NCBI RefSeq assembly: GCF_036226925.1
Contig: NZ_CP109031.1
Coordinates: 9,424,001 to 9,488,000 of the forward strand
Length of the DNA stretch: 64,000 nucleotides
Direction: 5' to 3'
Source: Streptomyces sp. NBC_00659
GTDB lineage: Bacteria; Actinomycetota; Actinomycetes; Streptomycetales; Streptomycetaceae
The notes under the pieces were generated by a model. The model did not search any database. It was not told the origin of the DNA and saw only the letters and a program-made list of their open reading frames with translations. Both the position numbers and the translations under genes were made by a program. Shown piece by piece: positions 1,267 through 26,529 of the stretch; position 1 is the first letter of the stretch, and each line of letters opens with the position of its first letter.

Positions 1267-1392
1267 TGGACCCCGGGTGACTCTGTACCAGGGCATGGTG
1301 CCGCGCCATGAGTGATCGGTGCACCTCGCTGGCCGAGGCAACTCCTGGGTACCAACAGCTAAGTGGGAACTCCTGCCGAAGGGAGATTCTAG

Positions 1393-2184
1393 ATGCTCGG
1401 GAAACTAGCTCCGTTCTTCGGGACAGCAGTTCTCTTCTTTGGCATAGGAGTACCTCACGAAACTGTCAGTGCCAGGCAGATGGCCCCCGAATATTGTCGA
1501 GATCTCTACTTCTTTGGCGGGCATGGCCTTGCTGAAGGGGGAGAGGACGACTGGGGTCCTACAGTCAAAAATGTGTACGACAATTACGAAAAAGGCATAC
1601 ATGATGCCGACCCTGATGTTTCGGTGGATGGCGAAGCTATTGCATACCCAAGGGTAGAGTTCCCAGATTGGGTACGACTCGTGCGGGCGAGGTTCAGTAG
1701 ACAGCAAGAGGAAGAGGTGATTGATGGGTCCATAGCGCTGAACAACCAGCTCACGGAGAGATACAAGGCTTGCCCGGGTGAGCGCTTTATTCTCGTCGGA
1801 TATTCAGAGGGGGCATGGGTGATTCACGACTATCTCAAAAATCTTGGCGCCGGAGCCCTCGATAGAATTGCTGGTGTCGCGCTGCTTGGTGATCCCCAAT
1901 ATGTCAGAACTGGAATTATTCCGAAATTGTATCCCAATCACGCAATCGCCCCCTACTTCCCTCCAGCCCTCCAGGAGAGGGCCGCCAGCTGGTGTGTTTC
2001 CTACAATCTTCCAGCCGCAAAGCGCACTGTATTTGATCCCATCTGCCATTTCTCAGGACCCGACGTAACGAACTGCCTAAAAGCTACTCAAGGCGATATT
2101 GGTGAAAGCTGGTGTCCACATCTTCGCTACGTCGAGACGGGCGGAACCAAGCGGGCTGCCGACTTTCTCATCGGTGTGAGCTGA
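1393..2184 (+). CDS. Secreted cutinase-family serine esterase
   Basis: 263 aa with an N-terminal hydrophobic export segment (residues 5-20). ATG 1393 follows GGGAG at a spacing of 8. The alpha/beta-hydrolase nucleophile elbow GYSEG puts the catalytic Ser at 138. FDPIC (Asp215) and CPHLRY (His243) complete a triad in the order and spacing of cutinases, and the paired Cys fit the disulfides of that family. Cutinases hydrolyse cutin, polyesters or acyl-glycerols outside the cell. Sequence around the triad is unusual (GYSEG rather than GYSQG), so the substrate is uncertain. It lies in a run of same-strand surface-protein genes. Confidence 0.8.
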   Translation: MLGKLAPFFGTAVLFFGIGVPHETVSARQMAPEYCRDLYFFGGHGLAEGGEDDWGPTVKNVYDNYEKGIHDADPDVSVDGEAIAYPRVEFPDWVRLVRARFSRQQEEEVIDGSIALNNQLTERYKACPGERFILVGYSEGAWVIHDYLKNLGAGALDRIAGVALLGDPQYVRTGIIPKLYPNHAIAPYFPPALQERAASWCVSYNLPAAKRTVFDPICHFSGPDVTNCLKATQGDIGESWCPHLRYVETGGTKRAADFLIGVS

Positions 2185-2237
2185 AAGCCGAAACTTGCTG
2201 TGACGTCGCTCGGGCCCCGGCGCAAGGAGCGTGATGG

Positions 2238-2771
2238 ATGATGACAGAGATGGTTAACTGTCCGCATTGCGGTGCGGTGGCCACCCAAGAAGATTCCTTC
2301 TGTGCCATTTGCGGGCGACGGATCAGGCCGGAAGGTGTCATTAACGCGCATGAACCGATACCTGTATCAAGTCCGGAGCCTGCACCCCTTGCTACTCCGG
2401 GGCAAGTGCATGCCAACCAAGCAGAGATCGCTCCTCACGCTCTTTACGCGGAATATGATTCCCGAAAGCTCACTGTACTGACAGGGTATGTGGCGGGTGT
2501 CATTGGTTTTCCTGTCGGCTTGCATAGACTGTACGCCGGGAAACCGCTATGGTGGATCTATTTGATTCTTTTCATCCTGGGGGCCATCGGAAGCTTCATT
2601 CTCGTCGGCTTCGTCTTCTTTGGAGTCATGTTCATCTGGTGGATTGTTGACATGGCGCTGATGAAAGAATGGGTGGAGTCGCACAATCAGACTCTTCGCC
2701 ACCAGATCTTCAACTGGGCGCGGGAAGTCGAAAGGAATCCCCACTCGGACTGGGGGACGCGAGTTGGCTGA
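2238..2771 (+). CDS. Zinc-ribbon TM2-domain membrane protein
   Basis: 177 aa. ATG 2238 has AAGGAG 8 nt upstream. The N-terminus has two CxxC knuckles (CPHCG at 8-12, CAICG), a small zinc ribbon. After a Pro-rich linker comes a TM2 domain (residues about 77-145): two hydrophobic helices, a GFPVGLHRLYAGK turn and a conserved Asp in the second helix (WWIVDMALM). TM2 proteins are small bitopic or hairpin membrane proteins of mostly unknown role. The following gene also starts with zinc ribbons and has a membrane helix, so the two may work together. Confidence 0.8.
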   Translation: MMTEMVNCPHCGAVATQEDSFCAICGRRIRPEGVINAHEPIPVSSPEPAPLATPGQVHANQAEIAPHALYAEYDSRKLTVLTGYVAGVIGFPVGLHRLYAGKPLWWIYLILFILGAIGSFILVGFVFFGVMFIWWIVDMALMKEWVESHNQTLRHQIFNWAREVERNPHSDWGTRVG

Positions 2772-2854
2772 CACCCTATTGCGGCGAAACCCGATTCTGG
2801 TATCGGATGACGCGGCTTGAAATCAGAAAGACTCAGATCATTCGGGAGTCATCG

Positions 2855-3607
2855 GTGGCAGGCCAAGCGGGACTCCATTGCGTGAACGGACATACTCCGC
2901 CACCAGAAAAGGAGGCATCTAAGTTCTGCACGATTTGCGGCACCCCTATAGTGATCACTTGCCCCAATGGGCACGAGGTCAAGCCAGCTCCCTACTGCAG
3001 CGTGTGCGGTGCGTCCTGGCCTTCCAGCGATCTACCTGGCAGTGATGAGCCCCTCGAACCATCACTGCCGCCGACCAGTCCGCAGAACCCTCGACGCGCG
3101 CCACCAGTTTTCCTGATCGTCGGAGCAGTGCTAATGGCCGTACTCGTCGGTGCTGGGGTCTATTTCGGCATGTCCCGGCAGGACAACTCAGGCTCTGGAC
3201 CTGAGCTGAGCACACCCGTACAGACAGCGCAGACACCCTCGGCGCAGGCTGCCAGCGAGGTTCCGCAGGAATACCTCGGCACCTGGGACAGCACCATCGA
3301 CAATGCCACAGGGCACCACACCCGCCGTCTCGTCATCCAGCAAGGCGGGGTCGGCGATCCGGTGCTCTTGCTTACAGCGGACGGTCCCACCAAAAACGGT
3401 GGAACGTACCACTGCGGATTCACGGCCGAGCTGGCCTCAGTACCCACGAGTAACGGGCCCCTCCGCATTGAGTCCTCCGCGGTGACCGTTGCTGAACCGG
3501 TGTCAGCCTGCAGGCCGGGCGGCGCCAGCACCATCACTCTGCTGTCCGACGGCAGACTCCGGCGCGCAGACGGCAGTGAGCAGTTGATTTACACAAAGGC
3601 AGACTGA
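2855..3607 (+). CDS. Double zinc-ribbon, single-pass membrane protein
   Basis: About 250 aa. I prefer GTG 2855 (GGGAG 6 nt upstream) to the in-frame ATG at 2807 and earlier codons that overlap the previous gene; it puts the zinc ribbon at the N-terminus. Two ribbons follow: C..C / CTIC and CPNGH / CSVC. A Pro-rich linker leads to one membrane helix (VFLIVGAVLMAVLVGAGVYF) and then an external domain of about 140 aa that begins EYLGTWDS and contains two Cys. This is a cytoplasmic metal-binding head with an extracellular domain of unknown function, one gene after the TM2 protein. Confidence 0.7.
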   Translation: MAGQAGLHCVNGHTPPPEKEASKFCTICGTPIVITCPNGHEVKPAPYCSVCGASWPSSDLPGSDEPLEPSLPPTSPQNPRRAPPVFLIVGAVLMAVLVGAGVYFGMSRQDNSGSGPELSTPVQTAQTPSAQAASEVPQEYLGTWDSTIDNATGHHTRRLVIQQGGVGDPVLLLTADGPTKNGGTYHCGFTAELASVPTSNGPLRIESSAVTVAEPVSACRPGGASTITLLSDGRLRRADGSEQLIYTKAD

Positions 3608-7438: not shown

Positions 7439-7785
7439 TAGCGTGACCTGATCACCCATGACCATGGAGGGATATGGCGCGTTATCAGGTCGTTCGCGCC
7501 TGTCCGGCGCACGCGGCCGTCCACCGGACACCGGTGATTTCGCCGATGCCCGCCGGTCCGCCCAGTCCCACAATGACGTCACGGCGAAGGCAGGTGCCAC
7601 ACCTGCCCCACGCACCTCCCGACATACCGTCATCCCACCCGCCGACCACCCCGTCACCGAACCGCGACGACGACAGTGACGGGACACGGCAGCGCGCGAA
7701 CAGTCCCAGCAGTCACCGGAAGTACCGGCAAGCACCGTCGCCAGACTCCGGATCCCCCACACCCCCACCAAGGACGTGACGAGCT
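7439..7785. other. Intergenic, no gene seen
   Basis: I see no supported gene. The 3' half, rich in CACC, CCCC and dinucleotide-poor stretches, is the likely promoter region of the secreted esterase at 7786. Confidence 0.5.
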
Positions 7786-8688
7786 GTGAATCGGCAGACC
7801 TCCCCCACACCCCCCGCCCCGCGCGCGCTCGCCCGGGCCGGGCGTTCACGCCTGATGCGCGCACTGACGACGCTGACGCTGTCGCTCGGCCTCGCGACAG
7901 GTCTGATGTTCGGCTCCTCCGGAACGGCGATGGCCGACGAGATCGGCCAGGCTCCCACCAGTTCCAACATCACCGGCAACGGCAGCTTCACCGTGACCAG
8001 CGCCGCCGTCACCGGCCAGAGCGGCTTCGGCGGGGGCCAGGTCTACTACCCCTCCACGGCCGGCACCTACCCGGTCGTCGCCGTCTCCCCCGGCTTCACC
8101 GCCTCCTGGTCCAGCATCAGCTGGCTCGGCCCCCGACTGGCGTCCTGGGGATTCGTGGTCGTCGGCATCGACACCAACTCCGTCTACGACCAGCCCGCCA
8201 GCCGGGGAACCCAGTTACTGGCCGCGCTGAACTGGGCGGTGAACTCCGCGCCGACCGCGGTCCGGTCACGGGCGGACGGTACCCGGCGCGGGGTGATGGG
8301 TCACTCGATGGGTGGCGGCGGCAGCCTGGAGGCGCTGGCGGCGGACACCACCGGCCTGGTCAAGGCCGCTGTACCGCTGGCCCCCTGGGACAGTGACAAG
8401 ACCTGGAACAACGTCAGTGAGCCGGTGGCCATCGTCGGCGGCCAGTCGGACACCGTCGCATCGCCGAGCAGCCACGCGATCCCCTTCTACAACACGCTCG
8501 CCGGGCAGAAGGAGTACGTCGAGATGTCCGGGGCCTCGCACGGCGCGCCCGCGGCGTCCAACACCACCACCTCCCGGGTGATGGTGTCCTGGTTCAAGCG
8601 CTACCTGAACAACGACACCCGCTTCACCCCGTTCACCTGCGGATATTCCGGCAGCGCCATCTCTTCCTTCCTGACCAACGCCTGCTGA
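7786..8688 (+). CDS. Secreted PET-hydrolase-like polyesterase (type II cutinase fold)
   Basis: 300 aa from GTG 7786 (AAGGA upstream). The signal peptide ends at GTAMA-DE (about residue 50). Triad: Ser174 in GHSMGGGGS, Asp222 in QSDTVAS, His252 in GASHGAP. The oxyanion segment SPGFTA (101-106), the Trp in APWDSDKTW (Trp201) and the C-terminal pair Cys285/Cys300, after WFKRYLNNDTRF, match the bacterial cutinase/PETase family. These enzymes hydrolyse aliphatic and aromatic polyesters outside the cell. GHS rather than GWS and the absence of a second disulfide resemble actinobacterial cutinases. Frame and start look intact. Confidence 0.88.
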   Translation: MNRQTSPTPPAPRALARAGRSRLMRALTTLTLSLGLATGLMFGSSGTAMADEIGQAPTSSNITGNGSFTVTSAAVTGQSGFGGGQVYYPSTAGTYPVVAVSPGFTASWSSISWLGPRLASWGFVVVGIDTNSVYDQPASRGTQLLAALNWAVNSAPTAVRSRADGTRRGVMGHSMGGGGSLEALAADTTGLVKAAVPLAPWDSDKTWNNVSEPVAIVGGQSDTVASPSSHAIPFYNTLAGQKEYVEMSGASHGAPAASNTTTSRVMVSWFKRYLNNDTRFTPFTCGYSGSAISSFLTNAC

Positions 8689-8707
8689 GCAGCCTGCGGG
8701 CGTCGCA

Positions 8708-8738
8708 CGGTGCCCCCGTCCTCCGGGCGGGGGCACCG
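8708..8738. terminator. Hairpin terminator between convergent genes
   Basis: A perfect 11-bp GC stem (CGGTGCCCCCG at 8708-8718 with 8728-8738) and 9-nt loop lie 20 nt after the esterase stop, before the convergent membrane gene. Confidence 0.75.
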
Positions 8739-8812
8739 GTCTGCCGCGGGACCGCGCGTACCGCTGCGGCACGGCTCCACCGGCCGGCCGTCACCCCGGG
8801 TGGCCCGGCGGC

Positions 8813-9368
8813 TCAGCGCGCGGCCGGCACGGGCGCGGGAGTCCCGTTCACGTCGAGGCGCCAGTCGCGCAGGGCGGCCAGCAGACCCGCCAGCATGAGC
8901 CCTTCACCGAGGTTGCCCAGCGGCGGCACCCTGAACGCGAGCGCGGAAGCGACGAAGACGGCGAGGGCGCCCAGGGCGACCCACGGCACCCCGTGACGTC
9001 TCCACACCACCACGCCGATCGCCAGCAGCGCCAGGATGGCGACGACCGCGGCGACGGGAGCCCCCGCGTCGGTGTAACGCAGGGTGTCCGCCCAGGTGCG
9101 GGGCTCCAGTTCGAGGCCGGGCAGGGTGGTGAGAACCCCGAGCACCGAGAGCGCTCCGGCGACCGCCCAGGCCCACCGTGCCGTACGCCGGCCCGGGCCG
9201 AGCAGCAGCGCCCCGCACACGACGGCCAGCGGGGTCAGGACCGCGTGTGCCGTGAACCGGCCCGTGTTGAGTGCCTCCAGAAGCGCGCCCTCTCCCGCCG
9301 CCGCACCCACGGCCACGACCAGTGAGTCGTACGCCAGGGCGAGGCCGAGGACGGCGATCCAGGGCGCT
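8813..9368 (-). pseudogene. Polytopic membrane protein cut by IS6
   Basis: About 185 residues of a hydrophobic protein with six or so membrane segments (for example WIAVLGLALAYDSLVVAVGA, VLTPLAVVCGALLL, AVVAILALLAIGVVVW). The 5' end is missing: coding sequence begins exactly at the left repeat of the IS6 element (NVTAPW is encoded across 9368). A longer open frame into the IS is a fusion artefact. The family is not recognised. Confidence 0.65.
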
Positions 9369-10213
9369 GTCACGTTGGCTGACCGGGTGGGATGATCTTC
9401 TGGTTGATCACGCTGGGAGGGGTCGTCCGTGGGGAGTGCGTCGCCGTCGTACAGGGGGCACCGGTACCCGGTCGAGGTGATCTCCCACTGCGTGTGGCTG
9501 TACTTCCGCTTCCCGCTCAGCTTCCGCGAGGTCGAGGAGTTGATGCTCCAGCGAGGCGTCATCGTCTCCTGCGAGACAGTGCGCCGCTGGTGCGCCAAGT
9601 TCGGCCAGGCCTACGCGAACGGACTGCGCCGCCGCCGGCCCCGGCCTGGGGACAAGTGGCACCTGGACGAGGTGTTCGTCAGGATCAACGGGGAGCTGAA
9701 GTACCTGTGGCGGGCCGTCGACCAGGACGGCAACGTCCTCGACATCCTCGTCCAGAACCGCCGCAACAAAGCCGCGGCCCGACGCTTCTTCCGCCGCCTG
9801 ATGAAGAAGACCCGGGCAGTGCCGAGGGTGATCATCACGGACAAGCTGCGTTCCTACGGCGCCGCTCACCGCGAAGTCATGCCCTCCGTCGAGCACCGCT
9901 CCCACAAGGGACTGAATAACCGGGCCGAGAACAGCCACCAGCCCACCAGGCAGCGTAAACGTGCCATGAAAGGCTTCCGCTCCGTCGGCGCGGCCCAGCG
10001 GTTCCTGTCCGCATTCAGCGGCATCTCACCCCACTTCCGACCCTACCGCCACCTGATGACCGCATCCCAACACCGAGCCGAGACGACCATCCGCCTCGCC
10101 ATCTGGGACCACGTCACCGGCGCTGCCAGCCGGCCCACCACGGCCTGACCACAGGCCCGGACCGCGGACCCCACCACGCCCCGACACGCCATCAGACACC
10201 CAACAACGTGACA
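9368..10213. mobile_element. IS6-family element
   Basis: The 10-bp ends TGTCACGTTG (9368-9377) and CAACGTGACA (10204-10213) are inverted repeats around one transposase; the length of about 846 bp fits IS6. The flanks are two different truncated genes (a membrane protein on the left, istB on the right) with no target duplication. Confidence 0.7.
9429..10148 (+). CDS. IS6-family transposase
   Basis: 239 aa from GTG 9429. It has the family order: GHRYPVEVISHCVWLYFRFP, LSFREVEELMLQRGV, an HTH region, the first DDE Asp in WHLDEVFVRI, the second in VIITDKLRSY and Glu in NNRAENSHQPTRQRER-like sequence (NRAENSHQPTRQRKRAMKGF). The protein looks complete. IS6 elements move by replicative cointegrate formation, which fits the mismatched flanking genes. 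Confidence 0.88.
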   Translation: MGSASPSYRGHRYPVEVISHCVWLYFRFPLSFREVEELMLQRGVIVSCETVRRWCAKFGQAYANGLRRRRPRPGDKWHLDEVFVRINGELKYLWRAVDQDGNVLDILVQNRRNKAAARRFFRRLMKKTRAVPRVIITDKLRSYGAAHREVMPSVEHRSHKGLNNRAENSHQPTRQRKRAMKGFRSVGAAQRFLSAFSGISPHFRPYRHLMTASQHRAETTIRLAIWDHVTGAASRPTTA

Positions 10214-10870
10214 ACGCCGGTTCGCGGTCTCGGCTTCGAAGGGGATGTAGCCGACCTCGTCCACCACGATCAGCGGGTAGCGGCTCAGCTTGGTGAGCTC
10301 GGCCTGGAGCCGTCCGGAGTGGTGGGCGGCGGCCAGGCGGTCGACCCACTCGGCCGCGGTGGCGAAGGCGACGCGGTGTCCGGTCTGACAGGCGCGGACG
10401 GCGAGGCCGATCGCCAGGTGTGTCTTCCCGGTGCCCGGCGGGCCCAGAAAGGCGGCGTTCTCCTTGCCGACGATGAAGTCGAACGTGCCCAGATGTGCGA
10501 GCTGTTGTCGCGTCATGCCGCGCAGATGGGTGACGTCGAGCTCCTCGATCGTCTTGACCGCGGGGAAACGGGCGGCACGTACTCTCGCCTCACCGCCGTG
10601 TGATTCGCAGGCGGAGACCTCGCGTTGGAGGCAGGCGACTAGGTACTCGGCGTGGGTCCAGGACTCCTTGCGGGCGCGTTCGGCGAGCCGGTCGGCGGCG
10701 TCCAGCAGGGCCGGGGCCTTCATCACGCGGGTGAGGAAAGCGAGGTCGGCGGCGGTCTGGGACCCGGTCCTGCGGCCCGCTGCGGTGCTTTCGGCCGGGG
10801 CACCGGTGGTGCGGGCATCAGCCGACCTCCCTGTCGCCGCTGCCTTCGATGACGGTGAACAGCCGGTCAT
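10214..10870 (-). pseudogene. istB: IstB-like ATPase, C-terminus removed by IS6
   Basis: The frame shows Walker A GPPGTGKTHLAIGLA and Walker B LIVVDEVGYIPFE, the AAA+ signature of IstB/DnaC-like helper ATPases that regulate IS21 transposase. Coding similarity stops after FEAETAN, at the IS6 boundary near 10214; the remaining open frame is IS6 sequence. The start is uncertain: the frame is open to 10870 and overlaps istA. The sensor regions are lost, so it should be inactive. Confidence 0.8.
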
Positions 10871-17028: not shown

Positions 17029-17078
17029 CTACCCCGCCACCAGCACATATACCCAGTCAAAGAGGAATCCAGCACTAA

Positions 17079-18125
17079 CGAGCTCGTGCACGGTAGGCGG
17101 TGAGACGTCGAGCCTGGATGGTTGATCATGGTCGGGTGGTGGGGAACTCGACGCGCGCGGTGATCATCAGCAATCGGCGGATCACGGGGCTGACTGCCGG
17201 AGTGATTGCTGAACTCGTCGAGGAGATCGGACCGTTGTGGCATGAGCGTCATCAGGCGAGGCTTGCCGCTCGCCCGCGGCAGAGAGCTGTGGGCGCCGGC
17301 GCGAAGTACCGGCTGGTGTTCGTCGACCGACTGCTGGCCACGCTGGTCCATCTTCGTCACGGGGTCACCCATGATGTGCTGGCCTGCTGGTTTGGAGCGG
17401 ACCGCTCCACTATCACCCGGGCCATCGGTGAGGTGCGGCCCCTGCTCGCCGAGCGGGGCTGCACCGTCAGCCCCGACGTGCGGCTGCGGTCTCTGGCTGA
17501 GGTTGTCGACCATCTCGGCGCGAGCGGGACGACCGGCATCGTCGACGGCACCGAGATCCGGGTCCGTCGGCCCGCCGCCGGACGCAAGGACCGCGACAAG
17601 TTCATTTCCGGCAAGAACAAGCAGAACGCCGTCAAGTCCATGGTGGTCACGGACGGCGGAGGCCGCGTGCTGTGGTGCAGCCCGGCCCGTCCCGCAAGCT
17701 GCGCGGACATCACCCACGCCCGCCAGTTAGGGCTGGTAAAACTCCTGGCCGACGGGCCTGCAGTCGAGATCCTGGCTGATGCCGGCTACCAGGGACTGGG
17801 CGCCCAGCCCGGTGGCCGGGTGGTGACACCACCGCACCGCAAGTTCAAGAAGAACGCCCCGGACTGGTACGAGGAGATGCACGAGCGCCAGCGCAAGGCG
17901 CACTCATCACGACGTATCCGTGTCGAGCACGGCATCGCCCATCTGAAGAACTGGCGGGCCCTGGCCCGCCACCTCGGTCGCCGCGAGCACATCAGCGACA
18001 CCGTCCAAGCCATCGCCAGCCTGCTGTCCCACCAGCAGACCGCGGACCTGAACCCGACACGGCAGATGTGAAGCCGGGCCGCACCGAAGTTCGCGACGTC
18101 TCACCGCCTACCGTGCACGAGCTCG
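17079..18125. mobile_element. IS5-family element with 32-bp perfect repeats
   Basis: 17079-17110 and 18094-18125 are perfect 32-bp inverted repeats. The 3-bp sequence TAA flanks both ends (17076-17078, 18126-18128) and fits an IS5-subgroup duplication. The element inserted immediately beside the IS630 end. Confidence 0.9.
17118..18071 (+). CDS. IS5-family transposase (DDE_Tnp_4)
   Basis: About 317 aa from ATG 17118; GTG 17160 is an alternative, and the earliest codon at 17100 lies inside the terminal repeat. It has a helix-turn-helix (THDVLACWFGADRSTITRAI), the DDE residues in GIVDGTEIRVRRP, EILADAGYQGLG and RIRVEHGIAHLKNWR, and appears complete, so this copy could be active. Confidence 0.88.
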   Translation: MVDHGRVVGNSTRAVIISNRRITGLTAGVIAELVEEIGPLWHERHQARLAARPRQRAVGAGAKYRLVFVDRLLATLVHLRHGVTHDVLACWFGADRSTITRAIGEVRPLLAERGCTVSPDVRLRSLAEVVDHLGASGTTGIVDGTEIRVRRPAAGRKDRDKFISGKNKQNAVKSMVVTDGGGRVLWCSPARPASCADITHARQLGLVKLLADGPAVEILADAGYQGLGAQPGGRVVTPPHRKFKKNAPDWYEEMHERQRKAHSSRRIRVEHGIAHLKNWRALARHLGRREHISDTVQAIASLLSHQQTADLNPTRQM

Positions 18126-18127
18126 TA

Positions 18128-18995
18128 AGCGTTGTCCCGTAAATGATCTTTGACGTGCTGGGTGACCTGCCGTTTCTCCGTCACCCGGCAAGGGTGAAGT
18201 TGTGCAGGCGGGCGATGCCGAGCATGGCGTGGTGGACGCCGTCGCCTTTGAGGCGGCAGTCGCGGAGGATCTTCCAGGTCTTCATGCGGGCGAAGGTGTG
18301 CTCGACGCGGGCGCGGACTTTGCGGTGAGAGGCGTTGTGTTCCTCTTTCCAGGCAGGGAGTTCGGCCTGGCCGGGTTCGCGGCGGTGCGGGATGATCAGG
18401 CCGGTGCCGCGGTAGCCGCCGTCCGCGATGACGGTGGTGTGGCCGACGGCGTCTTTCGCGCCGGACAGCTCCCATGCCTTGCAGTCGTTGCGGTTGCCGG
18501 GCAGTGGCCGGCCGACAGCGACGACGAGCCGGGTGTCGGCGTCGATGACGACCTGGTGGTTGGTGGAGTAGCGGTAGTTCTTCGACTGCTCGGCAACCTG
18601 GTGGTCGCGGGTGGGCACCAGAGTGCCGTCCACGATCAGCACGGTGTCCTTGCGGAACCGTCTGCGCTGCTGGAGGGCGAGCGCGGGGCCGAGGTGGTCG
18701 ATGATGCGGTCGGCCGCGGACTTGGACACCCCGAACAGCGGCGCCAGTTGGCGCAGTGTGAGGTTGGTCCGCCAGTACGCGGCGACCAGCAGCACGCGGT
18801 CCTCCAGGGGCAGGCTCCACGGCCTGCCCCTGCGGACCGGATCCGCACCCTCGCGCCGCAACGCTGTGATCAGCTTGCCGAACTGGCGCGGACTCAGCCC
18901 GGTGAACGGGGCTATCCAGGACGGCTCCGACGCCGTGATCACACCAGCCACACCAAGATCATCTCACCCGTGACCAGCAGTTACGGGACAAGTCT
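18128..18995. mobile_element. IS5-family element next to the TPR gene
   Basis: 15-bp ends AGCGTTGTCCCGTAA and AGACTTGTCCCGTAA (2 mismatches) are flanked by TA at 18126-18127 and 18996-18997. The left TA is shared with the duplication of the neighbouring IS5 element. Confidence 0.8.
18181..18951 (-). CDS. IS5-family transposase
   Basis: 256 aa, intact. HTH in LTLRQLAPLFGVSKSAADRI; DDE residues in LIVDGTLVPTRDHQ, TVIADGGYRGTG and RARVEHTFARMKTWKIL. Length and order match short Streptomyces IS5 members. The start MAGVITASEPSW is the usual one for this group. Confidence 0.88.
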   Translation of the reverse strand: MAGVITASEPSWIAPFTGLSPRQFGKLITALRREGADPVRRGRPWSLPLEDRVLLVAAYWRTNLTLRQLAPLFGVSKSAADRIIDHLGPALALQQRRRFRKDTVLIVDGTLVPTRDHQVAEQSKNYRYSTNHQVVIDADTRLVVAVGRPLPGNRNDCKAWELSGAKDAVGHTTVIADGGYRGTGLIIPHRREPGQAELPAWKEEHNASHRKVRARVEHTFARMKTWKILRDCRLKGDGVHHAMLGIARLHNFTLAG

Positions 18996-20614
18996 TAGGC
19001 TCCGCTTGCCATATTCAGGCTGTCCCTCAAATGGCGGGAGGCAGCCAGCGCATCGACGTATGCTTCAGGCAAGTCGGCGTAGAGCCGTGTATAGAGCTCC
19101 ACGGCTTCCTCTGCTACCGGAAATGCCTCCTGATGCCGGCCCACCTCAGATAGGTAGATTCCGAGGTTCTGGAGTGCTCTGGCGAGGTGGGGCGTGTGGA
19201 CGTCGGGATCGCTCGCCACCAGTTGCCGAAAGAGTTCTATCCCTTCCTTACAGGCTGCGAGTGCTTCTCGTCGCTGCCCCACGCTACTCAGTTGGATCCC
19301 GAGGTTCAGGACCGCGCCGGCGAGGTCGGGCGTGTGGACTTCAGGATCGCTCGCCACCAGTTGGCGGAAGAGTCCGACGGCTTCTCGGGAAGCTGCGAGT
19401 GCTTCTTGACGCTGCCCCACCTCCCCCGACTGGGTCCCAAGGTCCTGGAGCGCCATGGCGAGGAGTGATGTGTAGACGTCGGAATCGTTCGTCACCAGTT
19501 GGCGGAAGAGTTTCACAGCCTCTTGGAACGCTCCTAGTGCGTCTCGTCGAATTCCCGCTATACCCAGTTGGATGCCGAGGTTGTGGACCGCACTGGCGAG
19601 GTGGGGTGTGTGGACTTCGGGATCGCTTACCACCAGTTGGCGGAAGAGTCCGACGGCTTCTCGGGAAGCTGCGAGCGACTCTCGTCGCTGCCCCACCTTC
19701 CTTAGATGGGTCGCAAGGCTTTGGACCGCACTGGCGAGGAAGGGTGTGTAGGCGTCGGGATCGCTCACCACCAGTTGGCGGACCAGTTCCACGGCTTCCT
19801 GGGAAACGGCGAGTGCTTCTTGTCGCTGCCCCAGCCGGAGTCCAAGGTTATAGACCGCGCCGGCGAGGTCGGGCGTGTGGACTTCGGGATCGTTCTCCAC
19901 CAGTTGGCGGAAGAGTCCGACGGCTTTTTTCAGGGCTATGCATGCTTTTCGTCGCTGCCCCACCTCTCCCAGATGGGTCCCAAAGTTCTGGAGCGCCATG
20001 GCGAGGTCGGGCGTGTGGGTGTCTGGATCCTCCGCTACGAGTTGCTGGAAGAGCCCTACGGATTGCTCGGCTGCCGCGAGCGCCTCCCGATGCCGTCCTA
20101 GAGGGCCCAGATAAGTGCCCATGTTTTGTAGCGCCCTGGCGAGGTCGGGCGTGTGGGTGTCTGGATCCTCCGCTACGAGTTGCTGGAAGAGCCCTACGGA
20201 TTGCTCGGCTGCCGCGAGCGCCTCCCGATGCCGTCCCACTTGCCCCAGCCGAGACCCAAGCCTGCGCTGTGCCAGGGCCAGTTGCACGTTGCTCTCAGCC
20301 CGCAGGCAGCACTGTTCGGCAGCGGCGAGCGCGGCGCAGGGAAGGATGCCGGTGTTCTTTGGACTCACCTCGTCCAGCTTTCTCAACTCCTCGTAGTTGA
20401 GATTTAGGGTGCTAATCACTGCGGCCAGGGCAGTGTCGAGTGGGCCGGCCCCGTAGCGCGCGATGCTGAAGATGAGAGGGAGGAACGTTTTCGGGTCGGC
20501 GCGTATGACAGCGACGAGCCCGGTGACTGTCTCTGGGGCAGTGTGGGCGGCACGGGCGAGGTGCTTGATCAGCCGCATAGGGGCATCGGCGTCTGTGGCG
20601 GATGGTGTAGCCAT
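18995..20614 (-). CDS. Tetratricopeptide-repeat protein, partner of the NTPase gene
   Basis: 539 aa. ATG 20614 follows AGGAAGG and lies 18 nt after the NTPase stop, so the genes form an operon. After about 110 residues come roughly nine TPR-type units with a 46-residue period (GQRREALAASREAVGLFRQL ... DPEVHTPDLAGAVLNLG). Two adjacent units are encoded by a nearly exact 100-bp direct repeat (offset 138 bp). TPR arrays are protein-binding scaffolds and commonly sense ligands in STAND systems. The stop TAA is formed by the TA target site plus the first base of the IS5 element, so the natural C-terminus may be lost. Confidence 0.8.
   Translation of the reverse strand: MATPSATDADAPMRLIKHLARAAHTAPETVTGLVAVIRADPKTFLPLIFSIARYGAGPLDTALAAVISTLNLNYEELRKLDEVSPKNTGILPCAALAAAEQCCLRAESNVQLALAQRRLGSRLGQVGRHREALAAAEQSVGLFQQLVAEDPDTHTPDLARALQNMGTYLGPLGRHREALAAAEQSVGLFQQLVAEDPDTHTPDLAMALQNFGTHLGEVGQRRKACIALKKAVGLFRQLVENDPEVHTPDLAGAVYNLGLRLGQRQEALAVSQEAVELVRQLVVSDPDAYTPFLASAVQSLATHLRKVGQRRESLAASREAVGLFRQLVVSDPEVHTPHLASAVHNLGIQLGIAGIRRDALGAFQEAVKLFRQLVTNDSDVYTSLLAMALQDLGTQSGEVGQRQEALAASREAVGLFRQLVASDPEVHTPDLAGAVLNLGIQLSSVGQRREALAACKEGIELFRQLVASDPDVHTPHLARALQNLGIYLSEVGRHQEAFPVAEEAVELYTRLYADLPEAYVDALAASRHLRDSLNMASGA
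19999..20236 (-). repeat. Near-identical tandem TPR coding repeat
   Basis: About 100 bp from 19999 recurs without visible change from 20137. The offset of 138 bp equals one 46-residue TPR unit and indicates recent unit duplication. Confidence 0.75.
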
Positions 20615-20632
20615 TGTGGCTGACCCTTCCTG

Positions 20633-21919
20633 TCAGATAGTGAGAGCTGCATTGGCTAGGGCGGCAGGTAATCCGGGGTGTGCTGCTACGCATAGTGCGG
20701 CGTATCGATCGGCCAGGTAGGAAGGCAGATGCAGATCGAGCCATTGGCCTCCGCGCTGGGCGTAGAGCTGGTGGAGCCAGAGGGCCAGCTCAGTGCGGCG
20801 CTTGTCGCTGCTGCTAGTCAAGCCCGGCAGGTGGGCCAGGCGTCGCACGGCCTGTTCCAGGTTGTCAGCGCCTATTAGGGTTGCGGTGGCAATGGCGCTC
20901 TGTAGAATCGGCAGGGGCATAGTTATGGCGGAGTGTTCCGCAGCGTTCGTGCGCCACCACGCCTCCTCAGTGGTGAAAAGCTGGCGCAACGCAGTGGTGA
21001 GCTCAACCGGGCCGGTGAGTCCGTTGTAGGCGGTAATAGCAGCGGCGGCTTGCAACTCACCAACGGAGATGGCAGTTGTGACGCCGATCAGGGAGGCACT
21101 CGGCACTGGGCGGTCGAAGTAACGGGCATACTGCCTGACCGCGCCCTGAAACTGCTGGAACTGGTCAGTTGCGTCCGCGAGAGCGGAAGGAATCTGGGTG
21201 CGGCCGGCCGGACTGAGGACAGCCTGGTCAGCGGGGTCCATGGCGGCGCGGATCCGCGCCCACCAGGATGCAAACTCCCGTCCGCACAGTACAACTTTGA
21301 CCTGGTCCGACGACGCGCGCGCCAGTGTGCTCAGCATGCCGGCCAGGTCGTCCTGCTGCCGCGGCGAGGCATCCACATCGTCCACCAACAGCAGCACCCG
21401 GCCCTGGCGCAAGAGTGCGGCCTCGGCCGCGGCAACGGCCTGGCCATGTTGGACCCAGCCGCATTCGACATGCTCTCCAGCGAGCTGTTCGACAGCCTCG
21501 ATCAGCAGGCGGGTTTTCCCGCCTCCCGCGCCGCCCATAACCTGCCACATTCGCTTCCCGCCCGGCGTCCGGCACCAGTCCACCAGGCTCAGCAGCTCGC
21601 GGCGGCGCAGTGGGGAGAATGGCACGACGCGCTCGTCCGGGTTGAGTGCATAAAGGACACTGCCCGCATGTGTGCTAAGCCGAGACTCCGCCAAGGCAGC
21701 CGGGCCAGGCAACACCGCACACTCCCAGGCACTATCGGTACCCTCCCGCTCCTGGCGTCGCTGCCACCACGCGTCGCCGTACAACGCGAGAGCGCTCGCA
21801 CCTCCGCCCAACCCTGCGGCGATGGGCGGCGAAACGAAATTCGCCAACGCCGCTACCGCCCCGGCTGTCGCTCCCAGGCCACCGACAACCGTTGCTGAAA
21901 TAACGCGTGACCAGCGCAC
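20633..21919 (-). CDS. Membrane-anchored P-loop NTPase, STAND-like
   Basis: 428 aa. Two hydrophobic helices (residues 7-29 and 31-48) anchor the N-terminus. Walker A is MGGAGGGKTRLL (129-139), Walker B VLLLVDDVDASP (175-185), and a sensor-like strand KVVLCGREFASWW follows, the order of STAND/NACHT-type ATPases. The C-terminal 200 residues are helical with Trp and Arg-rich segments. There are no sensor repeats in the chain; a TPR array is encoded by the next gene instead. Such ATPases act as switches in signalling, cell death or phage defence. The exact family was not identified. Confidence 0.72.
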   Translation of the reverse strand: MRWSRVISATVVGGLGATAGAVAALANFVSPPIAAGLGGGASALALYGDAWWQRRQEREGTDSAWECAVLPGPAALAESRLSTHAGSVLYALNPDERVVPFSPLRRRELLSLVDWCRTPGGKRMWQVMGGAGGGKTRLLIEAVEQLAGEHVECGWVQHGQAVAAAEAALLRQGRVLLLVDDVDASPRQQDDLAGMLSTLARASSDQVKVVLCGREFASWWARIRAAMDPADQAVLSPAGRTQIPSALADATDQFQQFQGAVRQYARYFDRPVPSASLIGVTTAISVGELQAAAAITAYNGLTGPVELTTALRQLFTTEEAWWRTNAAEHSAITMPLPILQSAIATATLIGADNLEQAVRRLAHLPGLTSSSDKRRTELALWLHQLYAQRGGQWLDLHLPSYLADRYAALCVAAHPGLPAALANAALTI

Positions 21920-22044
21920 CGCCTACCCCCCCGCTAATTTCCCCGCCCACGGAACCTCGCGCCCTTACTCTGACTCCTGAAGAGTGAAGATGGGACTACT
22001 GAACCCACATACTTCACTAACTGCGCTGACTTTGTCGCCCCTTA

Positions 22045-22910
22045 GATCGTGTCCTATGTGGCGAGGCGGACGAGTCGTTTGCAGCAACAGAGGACTGCGG
22101 CGAGGCCGAGAAACGCCAGGTAGTTGCGGGGGTGGCGTTCGTAGCGGTGATTGAGCCGGCGGTATCCGGTCAGCCAGGACATGGTCCGTTCGATGACCCA
22201 CCTTCGGCGTCCCAGTCGTTCGTCGGACTCGATGCCCTTGCGGGCGATACGAACGCCAATGCGCCTGCCGCGTAACCATTTCCGCAGGTGGGGGATGTCG
22301 TAGGCCTTGTCGGCGTGGAGACGCTGAGGCTTGAAGTAGCGGCCCCTGTAGGGGTCGTGTCTCGTTTGGTGCCCGGTGATCATGGGCTTGAGCGCGAGAC
22401 TGTCGTGGGTGTTGGCGGCCGAGACGCCGACGAGGAGGGGCAGTCCGTTCGCGTCCGACAAGACGTGCATTTTGGAACCCGGCTTGCCTCGGTCCACGGG
22501 ACTCGGGCCTGTGAGGTCGCCCCTTTTTTCGCCCTCACGTGGGCGGAATCGAGGACTGCTCGGGAGAGGTCGAGCAGGTCGGCGTCGTCCAGGCGGTGCA
22601 GGATCTCCTCGTGCAGCCGCCCCCATACTCCCGCCCGGGACCAGATCAGGAACCGGCGATGCGCAGTCGACTTCGATATGCCAAAGCACGGCGGCAAAGC
22701 CCGCCAGGCGCACCCGCTGACCAGCACGTAGATGATGGCCGCGAACAGCGTCTCATCAGGTGTGTCCTGTGTTCCGCCACCCTGAGGCCGCACCTTCGAC
22801 GACGGGATCAGCGGCTCCGCGATCTCCCGCAGCCCGTCCGGAACAATCCAACTCCACGTACCCCGCCCCATAACCAAGTCCAACGACCCAGCCACACATA
22901 GGACACGGTC
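22045..22910. mobile_element. IS5-family element with two-frame transposase
   Basis: Ends GATCGTGTCCTATGTG and GACCGTGTCCTATGTG (one mismatch) are inverted repeats, flanked by TTA at 22042-22044 and 22911-22913. The length of 866 bp is typical. Confidence 0.85.
22054..22895 (-). CDS. IS5-family transposase, two frames joined by -1 shift
   Basis: Frame 0 (22895-22380) encodes the N-terminal domain to LDSAHVRAKKG; frame -1 (to 22054) encodes RGDLTGPSPVDRGKPGSKMH, LHADKAYDIPHLRKWL and RRWVIERTMSWLTGYRRL with the remaining catalytic residues. The frames overlap and meet at AAA AAA GGG G (22529-22520). A -1 slip yields RAKK-RGDLTGP with no gap. Two-frame transposases are known in this IS5 subgroup, so the frame change is probably functional rather than a mutation. 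Confidence 0.78.
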
Positions 22911-22913
22911 TTA

Positions 22914-23184: not shown

Positions 23185-23826
23185 ATGAGGACAGACGCGG
23201 ACATGGATTCGCTCCGCTGGGCGGTGGCCTGGATGTGCGTCACCTTTACCCGCGACCTGAGCCCCGAGGAGGTCTTCACCCGGTACGGGGCCGACCCGGA
23301 CCAGGCACGCCTGCTCGACTGGGACACGGCCTCGGCCCTGGTCTTGGGCGACTCCGACGACGAGATGGTCTCGCTGCTGCGGTCCGGGGGGATCGGTGAA
23401 TGGGCCTTTTGCGTCGAGGAGGAAGGTGGCATCGGCTTTGGGGAAAAATCGCTCGCGGAGTTGTCTCGCGGGACTGAGACGTACAGCCTGGCGACGACCG
23501 ACGGAATCGATGTCTTCCAGTACTGGCGTGACGGCGAGTGCGTCGAGTACTTCGAGCCCGGCATGGAGCACACCCGGTCCGAACCGCTCGGGCTCTGGTG
23601 GGATCGGGTGGAAACGGCGCTCGCCGCGCACGAGCGCGAGGATGCCGGCATGGCACCTGCGGTGGCCCTCGTGCTGGACCACCTCGGCATCACCCTGGAC
23701 GATGCCACCCTCGCCGGGCCCTGGCCCAGCCTGACGCTCGCCGAGGACGATGCGCCATCGGTGCCACTGGGCGACACCTACGCGGGCGAGGGACCGGTTC
23801 CGCCCGGGACTGTCGAGATCTGGTAG
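23185..23826 (+). CDS. DUF6461-type protein
   Basis: 213 aa from ATG 23185 (GGAGG 8 nt upstream). The first half (residues 10-115) resembles actinobacterial DUF6461: RWAVAWMCVTFTRDLSPEEV, YGADP, then a WAFCVEEEGGIGF segment typical of its antiparallel sheet. Residues 115-150 (EPLGLWWDRVE) continue the match; the tail is acidic and Pro-rich. The domain is of unknown function and often occurs singly in genome islands. No signal or membrane helix. Confidence 0.7.
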   Translation: MRTDADMDSLRWAVAWMCVTFTRDLSPEEVFTRYGADPDQARLLDWDTASALVLGDSDDEMVSLLRSGGIGEWAFCVEEEGGIGFGEKSLAELSRGTETYSLATTDGIDVFQYWRDGECVEYFEPGMEHTRSEPLGLWWDRVETALAAHEREDAGMAPAVALVLDHLGITLDDATLAGPWPSLTLAEDDAPSVPLGDTYAGEGPVPPGTVEIW

Positions 23827-24900: not shown

Positions 24901-25477
24901 GCAACCACGACCTGGGAGACAGCACAGACCCCCCTGCGGCCCCCGGTTCGACGGCTCTTTCCGGCCCGCCGGCCAACGCCACGGCGCCCGGCAGCGGACG
25001 GATGAGAAGTTTTCCGCCTTCTACCGCGAGAACATCCGCCCCCTGACCGGCTTCCTGATTAACCACGGCGCCAGCGTCCAAGTGGCCGCAGACATCGCCC
25101 AGGAGGTCATGACCGATGCCTACCGCAACTGGGAGAACATCGCCCATCCGAAAGCCTGGGTCCACAAAGCCGCCTCCCGCACACTGGCCCGCAAGGTCGC
25201 CTCCGTCGAGGAACCCGTCGACGACATCCCCGAACCCTCCGCGCTGGTGCCCCGCCCCGACGCCATCGCGGAATGGGAGGCCCGGCACGACGCGCTCCCC
25301 CTGCTGCGCAGTCTGCCGATGAAGCAACGCCAGGTCATGGCCTGGACACTGGCCAGCTTCACCCCTACCGACATCGCCGACCACCTCGGCCTTCCGGCCG
25401 AGAACGTGCGCGCCAACCTGAAGAAGGCCCGTCGCACCGCAGCTGCCTACCTCAAGGCACGTGAGGAGGAACAGTGA
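24897..25477 (+). pseudogene. ECF-type sigma factor gene with a one-base frameshift
   Basis: From GTG 24897 the first frame encodes a Pro/Ala-rich leader ([17 protein letters not shown]) and stops early. From about 24996 a different frame reads DEKFSAFYRENIRPLTGFL, QVAADIAQEVMTDAYRNWEN (region 2), AWVHKAASRTLARK, and MKQRQVMAWTLASFTPTDIA ... AENVRANLKKARR (region 4 HTH). Restoring one base near GCGGACG would join them. The 3' part is well conserved, so this is a recent lesion or a sequencing error. Its TGA overlaps the next start. Confidence 0.75.
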
Positions 25478-26529
25478 CCCGCCACCTTGAACCCGATGGC
25501 CAGGCTGCGCACCACTGGCTCACCCAGCACCAGCACGGCCTGTCCCATGCCCTCGACGAGTTCCTCGACACCGAGGCTGGCCTGCGCGAAATCCTCCTTC
25601 ACTCCGGCCACGACACCGCGACAGACAATCTCGACACCGTTCTTGACACAGAAGCAGGGCTTGCCGACATCCTCCCGATCCCCACCTCCGCAACGGACGG
25701 CACACGCGGCATGCCGCATCATCACACTGAACCGACGGAACTCCTGCGCACGCTCAGCTCCGCAGACCGCATGGCCCTGCGCAACGAACCCGATGTCAAA
25801 ACAGCCAGTCTCGCACTCGCCCAGGACCTCGACATCGCCCATGCCGGCATTCCCCGGGACCTCGACGTTGCTCGCATCCTCGCCATCGATCTCGCAAATG
25901 CCATCGTCCGCGACCTCGACCTCGTTCTCGTCCGCGACCTCGTTCTCGACCCCTCCTTCAAACCTGCCATGACCCGCGCCCGGGCCATTGCGATCGACCG
26001 CGCCCGCGTCCTCTCTATCGACCTTGCAAGGGACACAGACCGCGCCCGTGCCCTCGACCTCGCTGGCGCTATCAACCGTGCCCGCGAGCTCGATCGCCAC
26101 CGCGTCTATCACCTTGATCTTGAACGAGCCTTCGGCCGAGCCTGCGACCTCGACCGCGCCTTCGAGCGTGCCCGCGACCTTGAACTCGACCGCTACCTCG
26201 ACCTCAATCTCGACCTTGGCATCATCGTCGACATTCGAACCACCGAGGTTGGCCGTGCCATCGGCCTGGTACGCCGCTGCGGGCCCGTCATGCTCGACAA
26301 GGATTCGCTGTACGCGCTCTTGGATGACTTCACTACCACTGACCTCAGCACCGTCGACCTAACCGGGGTCGACCTCAGCGGTGTCCACTGGTCCGAACAC
26401 ACCACGCAGTGGCCGCCTGCCATCGACGTAGAAGACCTCAAGGTCAGGTCGGACGAATCCCCACCCGGCAGTGGTACCTGGATCGTCCGGTCCGGCACCG
26501 CCACCATCCGAGACCTCGCCGAACGGTGA
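25474..26529 (+). CDS. Arg/Asp/Leu repeat protein with pentapeptide-like tail, unknown function
   Basis: 351 aa from GTG 25474 (GTGA overlap with the sigma gene stop). Residues about 117-250 are degenerate repeats built on RDLD, DLDxARxLAxDL and RARxLDLxxA, alternating charged and aliphatic residues and predicted to be long amphipathic helices. Residues 295-315 carry pentapeptide-like units (DLSTVDLTGVDLSGVHW), followed by a WPPAIDVEDLKVRSDE segment and a final strand pair. The N-terminal 110 residues contain HLEPDGQAAHHWLTQHQ. I know no assigned function. The clean frame contrasts with the broken sigma gene. Confidence 0.7.
   Translation: MTRHLEPDGQAAHHWLTQHQHGLSHALDEFLDTEAGLREILLHSGHDTATDNLDTVLDTEAGLADILPIPTSATDGTRGMPHHHTEPTELLRTLSSADRMALRNEPDVKTASLALAQDLDIAHAGIPRDLDVARILAIDLANAIVRDLDLVLVRDLVLDPSFKPAMTRARAIAIDRARVLSIDLARDTDRARALDLAGAINRARELDRHRVYHLDLERAFGRACDLDRAFERARDLELDRYLDLNLDLGIIVDIRTTEVGRAIGLVRRCGPVMLDKDSLYALLDDFTTTDLSTVDLTGVDLSGVHWSEHTTQWPPAIDVEDLKVRSDESPPGSGTWIVRSGTATIRDLAER

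Follow-up and report, generated by a model that had tools for sequence, protein, structure and literature searches.

In models of the STAND (signal transduction ATPases with numerous domains) and NLR (nucleotide-binding, leucine-rich-repeat) proteins, the ATPase and its repeat arm form one chain, in which an intramolecular lock keeps the switch off. Whether the two parts can also be encoded apart is the question raised by a pair of genes of Streptomyces sp. NBC_00659, found in a stretch of 64,000 nucleotides (the window) that corresponds to bases 9,424,001–9,488,000 of a 9.66-Mb single contig. One gene encodes a nucleoside triphosphatase (NTPase) and the other, downstream of it and likewise on the minus strand, a tetratricopeptide repeat (TPR) protein (Table 1). 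A first-pass annotation had described them as a split STAND-like system, and the coordinates, strand and 18-nt gap that it gave agree with the sequence. The reading to which we lean, with a little more confidence than doubt, is that of a STAND (NLR-like) switch in two subunits, a membrane-associated nSTAND5 ATPase and a separate TPR sensor that would reassemble in trans.

The two open reading frames (ORFs) lie in the same frame with a single stop between them, so that a recent nonsense mutation became the first rival to be tested. Among 392 genomes of the genus, 12, one of them the window genome, contained matches of the NTPase at a threshold of 1e-10. Apart from the window genome, the best match was that of genome G144, which shows 40% identity across almost its whole length and lies in a short frame of 450 codons, the other ten frames having 954–1633. 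In a scan of named genomes, the single NTPase query found no relative and a two-row alignment found two loci, one in Streptomyces sp. 8K308 and one in S. hainanensis DSM 41900, the latter being evidently the same genome as G144. The first-pass annotation had proposed looking for conserved pairing, and the adjacent pair does recur in these two other Streptomyces, with gene order and cut site identical to those of the window, NTPases 41% (8K308) and 39% (S. hainanensis) identical to the window copy, and TPR proteins 38% and 37% identical, respectively. The spacers differ, and that of S. hainanensis would measure 130 nt should translation of the TPR gene begin at an earlier GTG. Each TPR start is preceded by a Shine–Dalgarno-like sequence, which reads GAAGGAGG for 8K308 and GAGGAGG for S. 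hainanensis and is weaker, as AGGAAGGG, in the window pair. The three split NTPases form one clade (support 100/98) in a tree of 30 ORFs. A fresh nonsense mutation or an assembly error was ruled out as the leading reading, since the split is common to two divergent relatives, in one of which the genes are out of frame with each other.

Between the 8K308 and S. hainanensis copies, the NG86 method gave nonsynonymous (dN) and synonymous (dS) divergences of 0.119 and 0.370 for the NTPase (dN/dS ~0.32), of 0.166 and 0.381 for the TPR gene (~0.44) and of 0.030 and 0.282 for gnd (~0.11), which is read as the gene of 6-phosphogluconate dehydrogenase and adjoins these two pairs and not that of the window; the YN00 ratios were below those of NG86. 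When the window copy is compared, divergence approaches saturation, with NG86 dS values of 1.38–1.48. In a neutral simulation at 0.4 substitutions per site, 3 of 300 runs stayed free of stops for the NTPase and 0 of 300 for the TPR gene, and the corresponding counts at 0.05 per site were 115 and 98, which makes the argument from the open frames dependent on the large divergence. We conclude that the split is an old one and that both genes have been kept open; as judged from these comparisons, the two-gene arrangement looks like a real variant and not like a freshly broken gene.

Further relatives of the NTPase were searched with two- and three-row alignments in overlapping draws, with the window genome counted each time, and were found in 34 of 391 genomes of the order (1e-12), 19 of 394 of the class (1e-15) and 30 of 394 of the family (1e-20). 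With the HMMER filters off, the loci fetched gave 64 distinct NTPase ORFs, that of the window included, of which 54 are single chains that include the TPR arm, three are the clean splits described above, where the repeats occupy a separate gene, and seven are neither. For the nSTAND5 relatives recovered, the earlier statement that STAND NTPase and repeat sensor usually share one chain therefore holds. The default filters gave 54 distinct ORFs with 45 single chains, and this 45-chain set was used for the counts of domains, motifs and boundaries; G876, a single chain in the default-filter count, dropped out of it with the filters off, its ORF being ended by the end of the contig. G475 and G428 look, by reading, like frameshifted single-chain genes, G928 and G840 have unread runs inside the TPR array, and G839 appears, also by reading, to be cut short near a transposase-like sequence. 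In G032 a trypsin-like–nSTAND5 gene whose TPR tail is short shares an overlap of 8 nt (ATGCCTGA) with a gene for 1330 amino acids that ends in a CHAT domain (1.5e-31), a second and different two-gene layout in the family, which hints that division of the arm occurred more than once.

The single chains also locate the cut. The TPR profile begins at its position 5–10 in 22 of the 45, and in 21 of these 22 the TPR match starts 0–16 residues past the end of the NTPase match (34 in the remaining one), which itself ends at 412–425 of 428. As the TPR match of these single chains begins right after the NTPase match has ended, the split lies between the two parts, and the C-terminal region of the window NTPase stops where the single-chain relatives run on into the TPR arm. 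By tree path the nearest ORFs that are not split are those of G1072, G869 and G738, which, together with that of G457, branch outside the remaining group of 22, with no settled order among them in the tree.

The NTPase of the window matches the Pfam family nSTAND_NTPase5 (PF25199) with 39.0 bits, above the gathering cut-off of 34, and that of 8K308 scores 39.9 bits; AAA_16 reaches 17.6 bits in the window protein, below its cut-off. Together with this score, a Walker A segment (GGAGGGKT), a Walker B segment (LLLVDD) and a conserved arginine in GREFASWW bear out the Walker A/B NTPase proposed at first pass, and the G-x-G-K-x-R, D and R columns, invariant over the 45 single-chain relatives, are all present. 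The first-pass annotation had also called for a check against housekeeping families; in the sequence half of this check the best family match of the NTPase is the STAND family, and a housekeeping ATPase is disfavoured because of this match and of a sporadic distribution (1 of 61 genomes in one sample, the window's own, and 2 of 61 in another, G144 itself and G032). No relatives of solved structure were found for the NTPase, nor any relatives in the phage records and viral contigs searched, and a plasmid search returned two Kitasatospora records with a TPR-annotated protein at 28.7% identity. Pfam revealed no catalytic effector domain in the NTPase.

The description of the NTPase as membrane-anchored stands in part. 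A hydrophobic N-terminal stretch is present at about residues 8–50 and has been interpreted as a two-helix hairpin, but its best hydropathy window is marginal at 1.69, so that anchoring is moderately supported. The corresponding values are 1.68 and 1.98 in the split relatives and, among the single-chain relatives, 2.36 in G1072, 2.13 in G457 and 1.94 in G869, with a weaker 1.44 in G738.

In the TPR protein, TPR_12 and TPR_10 match with 70.6 and 60.8 bits (Pfam), and the 46-residue period noticed at first pass is seen both in a self-identity of 0.507 at lag 46 (0.413 at lag 92 and 0.314 at lag 138, against 0.03–0.14 at all other lags between 28 and 59) and in the 138-bp units reported by TRF. 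The same program finds a tandem duplication inside the array at window positions 19985–20236 (252 bp, 1.8 copies of 138 bp, 97% matches), and the best identity between two full 138-bp units is 90.6%; the number of repeats has changed recently, and the duplication is in frame. Matches of solved structure to the TPR protein are kinesin light chains. A profile of the joining region, which precedes the repeats, matches the single-chain relative G457 (1.9e-10) and was found at 1e-5 in 3 of 286 genomes, those of the window, G144 and G219; in G219 it is part of a chain that also includes the NTPase, the other two being split pairs, and this search brought up no TPR subunit that lacked its NTPase. Elsewhere in the window genome (G000 C1:7083832-7087797) there are very large TPR proteins, with open frames of 1921 and 2111 amino acids, which are at most 40% identical to the TPR array.

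A clue to function comes from the domains of the relatives. At an E-value of 0.001, 44 of the 45 single chains match nSTAND_NTPase5, 21 Trypsin_2, two TIR_2 and two EAD1, some of these matches being below the Pfam cut-offs; the trypsin-like or TIR domain is N-terminal in the six proteins viewed, of which one has TIR and five are trypsin-like, weakly so in one case. Because the trypsin-like, TIR and EAD1 domains of the single-chain relatives are those of predicted conflict systems, a role of the pair in defence or cell death, which had been suggested at first pass, may be inferred by analogy.

Both genes are intact, cut at an inter-domain boundary and adjacent in three species across ~60% protein divergence. 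In the model favoured here, the hydrophobic hairpin at the N-terminus of the NTPase would occupy the position of the effector, while the TPR protein, as the equivalent of the C-terminal half of the single-chain relatives, would serve as both lid and sensor. The two proteins would dock via the C-terminal region of the NTPase and the ~118-residue N-terminal region of the TPR protein, and the ATPase, with ADP bound, would be kept closed by the TPR protein. When a trigger binds, which is probably an invader's protein, nucleotide exchange and oligomerization of the ATPase at the membrane would become possible, following which the hairpin could disturb the membrane, arresting growth or killing the cell.

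It has to be noted that several observations weigh against this reading. Three split loci were found, and two of them are closely related and both beside gnd. Neither protein of the window pair has a convincing system match in PADLOC-DB 2.0.0, the matches of the NTPase being weak and partial (HEC-01B at 9e-5 and 1.6e-4, GajB at 0.01 and weaker) and the TPR protein having none; among the 45 single-chain relatives, families of this library were likewise absent at 1e-5. A Pfam scan of 20 neighbouring ORFs chosen by hand, 10 of which were compared with PADLOC as well, brought no convincing defence gene to light. The G+C content at third codon positions (GC3) of the window pair is 0.69–0.72, versus 0.94–0.95 in the 8K308 pair and 0.87–0.90 in three other ORFs of the window, and the TPR protein of the window lacks a C-terminal tail of ~27 residues that is present in its relatives; in view of the low GC3 and the lost tail, the window copy may be a recent arrival in the genome or in the course of being lost from it. 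Insertion of the NTPase into the membrane is predicted from marginal hydropathy alone, and binding, membrane insertion, nucleotide use and defence are all, for this pair, deductions from sequence.

These points leave room for three other explanations. The proposal that a single-chain STAND gene has been freshly broken by one nonsense codon, leaving a pseudogene in a mobile chromosome arm rich in insertion sequences (IS), would account for the shared frame with its one stop, the single-chain state of most of the ORFs recovered and the position of the pair, with its unusual GC3, among IS elements, and the frameshifted appearance of G475 and G428 indicates that breakage does happen in the family. 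It is nevertheless very improbable, being largely refuted by the split that the two relatives share, with differing spacers, another frame in one of them and a Shine–Dalgarno-like site in each; moreover, no stops have accumulated, and the ~10 leading residues of the split TPR proteins were not found by profile in the single chains. It is also conceivable, albeit quite unlikely, that the split pair is functional elsewhere and that the window copy is now decaying after an IS insertion at the end of the TPR gene. The IS at the TPR stop, the missing tail and the low GC3 would all fit such a decay, as would the absence of a sigma-70-type promoter-like match in 20500–22100, which is little informative, 0.1 matches being expected by chance; however, the two ORFs and their recognized motifs are undamaged, the loss is confined to a tail outside the TPRs, and the recent 138-bp duplication preserved the frame.

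The remaining explanation, which we consider unlikely, keeps the two proteins together and changes their task, the TPR protein being a dedicated inhibitor (an antitoxin-like lid) of a membrane ATPase that serves housekeeping or development, or else its localization partner. The two pairs that adjoin gnd have, by eye and in short contigs, no recognizable defence neighbours, and no phage or PADLOC link was found, both of which such a role would explain; the sporadic distribution and the relatives with TIR, EAD1 and trypsin-like domains argue against it. The two-subunit switch remains the reading that we prefer.

Table 1. Positions of the gene pair and its flanking elements in the window, and of related two-gene loci in other genomes (locus label given)
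Feature	Position	Strand	Remarks
NTPase gene (gene 1)	20633–21919	(-)	428 aa; hydrophobic N-terminal stretch, nSTAND_NTPase5 ATPase, C-terminal region
Spacer between the genes	20615–20632	(-)	18 nt; frame register kept; Shine–Dalgarno-like AGGAAGGG ~10 nt before the TPR ATG
TPR gene (gene 2)	18995–20614	(-)	539 aa; ~118-residue N-terminal region and ~9 TPR units of 46 residues
N-terminal region of the TPR protein	20261–20614	(-)	equivalent to the NTPase–TPR joining segment in some single-chain relatives
IS element at the 3' end of the TPR gene	18126–18997	(-)	inverted repeats 18126–18145/18978–18997; DDE transposase 18181–18951
IS element upstream of the NTPase gene	22044–22911	(-)	17-nt inverted repeats 22044–22060/22895–22911, 94% complementary
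Split pair, Streptomyces sp. 8K308	L069: NTPase 1–1287, TPR 1318–3012		spacer 30 nt, one frame
Split pair, S. hainanensis (G144)	L029: NTPase 7570–8910, TPR 9113–10819		spacer ~200 nt, different frame
Two-gene layout of G032	L073: 6531–12981		8-nt overlap; second gene with CHAT domain

The pair is flanked on both sides by IS elements, as the first-pass annotation had stated and as their terminal inverted repeats show; the ORFs of the right-hand element are transposase-like and were assigned by reading only. The same annotation had the right-hand TPR stop made by an IS junction: the stop codon (18995–18997) does consist of the last three bases of the IS arm 18978–18997, but the 3' end of the gene is its left-hand end in window coordinates. 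A third IS at window positions 17070–18134, with 41-nt inverted repeats (93%), has an outer arm that runs into the end of the element at the TPR stop, so that the original sequence past the TPR gene is no longer visible.

The window has 207 ORFs of at least 120 amino acids, many of them spurious, and the 20 neighbours scanned encode transposases, a methyltransferase, a SpoIIE-type phosphatase, an M28 peptidase, an alpha/beta hydrolase, a DUF6461 protein and unknowns; the single PADLOC match among the 10 compared, to PD-T4-6 (4.4e-6), is weak and partial. These hand-picked ORFs, with much of the window outside the scan, show no defence island around the pair. The DUF6461 protein (1.1e-11; window 23185–23826) adjoins the right-hand IS. 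Further along, window positions 25082–26529 hold a small ORF resembling sigma-70 region 4 (1.6e-5, just under the Pfam cut-off), followed by an ORF of 351 amino acids that is rich in D/R/A/L repeats and has no Pfam match.

A wider proposal, a tentative one that we would sooner doubt than assert, is that a STAND immune switch of a bacterium here exists for good as two proteins translated separately, a free TPR sensor and an ATPase bound to the membrane, with non-covalent contact as the sole link between sensing and triggering. If it is true, the sensor could, like the helper and sensor NLRs of plants, be exchanged, over- or under-supplied, or shared. A natural two-protein version would make it possible to ask directly whether the covalent linkage is needed, to mix the sensor with the engine and titrate the one against the other, and to map the locking interface without engineering. 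The pair also adds a form with a hydrophobic hairpin to a family whose other members bear trypsin-like, TIR or EAD1 domains, and which lies outside PADLOC-DB 2.0.0, the one library of defence genes compared here.

A description of a two-gene separation of a STAND ATPase from its repeat arm was not found in the open-licence literature within the words searched. Conflict operons of two genes with STAND or membrane parts are known in the form of the nSTAND2 operon and the EACC1 systems, as described in the relevant passages of PMC8195603 and PMC7159879. According to these passages, the nSTAND2 operon differs from the window pair in having a STAND ATPase in both genes and the EACC1 systems in having a caspase-domain protein, and in neither is one STAND ATPase parted from its own repeat arm. 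EACC1 and caspase domains were not matched in either window protein (Pfam, E up to 1; for the TPR protein, among the matches listed). Avs5 (SIR2-nSTAND3-repeats), as portrayed in the part of PMC12931631 drawn on here, shares the tripartite logic of effector, STAND ATPase and C-terminal repeats, the latter being proposed to act both as the sensor of a phage protein and as the part that keeps Avs5 off; it differs in belonging to another STAND family, in its catalytic SIR2 effector, in being a single chain and in having been tested with phage.

Closer to the window pair are the nSTAND5-TPR proteins that carry trypsin-like, TIR or EAD1 domains, which have the same ATPase and TPR families and differ in having a catalytic or adaptor domain in place of the hydrophobic hairpin and in being single chains; predicted conflict systems with such domain architectures were introduced in PMC7159879 and are also treated in the pertinent part of PMC8195603. 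The closest likeness is to the short single chains of Actinomycetes in G457 (757 aa) and G1072 (853 aa), which score 28.4 and 30.8 against nSTAND_NTPase5, under the Pfam cut-off of 34, and which likewise consist of a hydrophobic N-terminus, an nSTAND-type ATPase, a joining region of ~100 residues and a TPR array, but do so in one polypeptide, whereas the window pair consists of two genes with separate starts.

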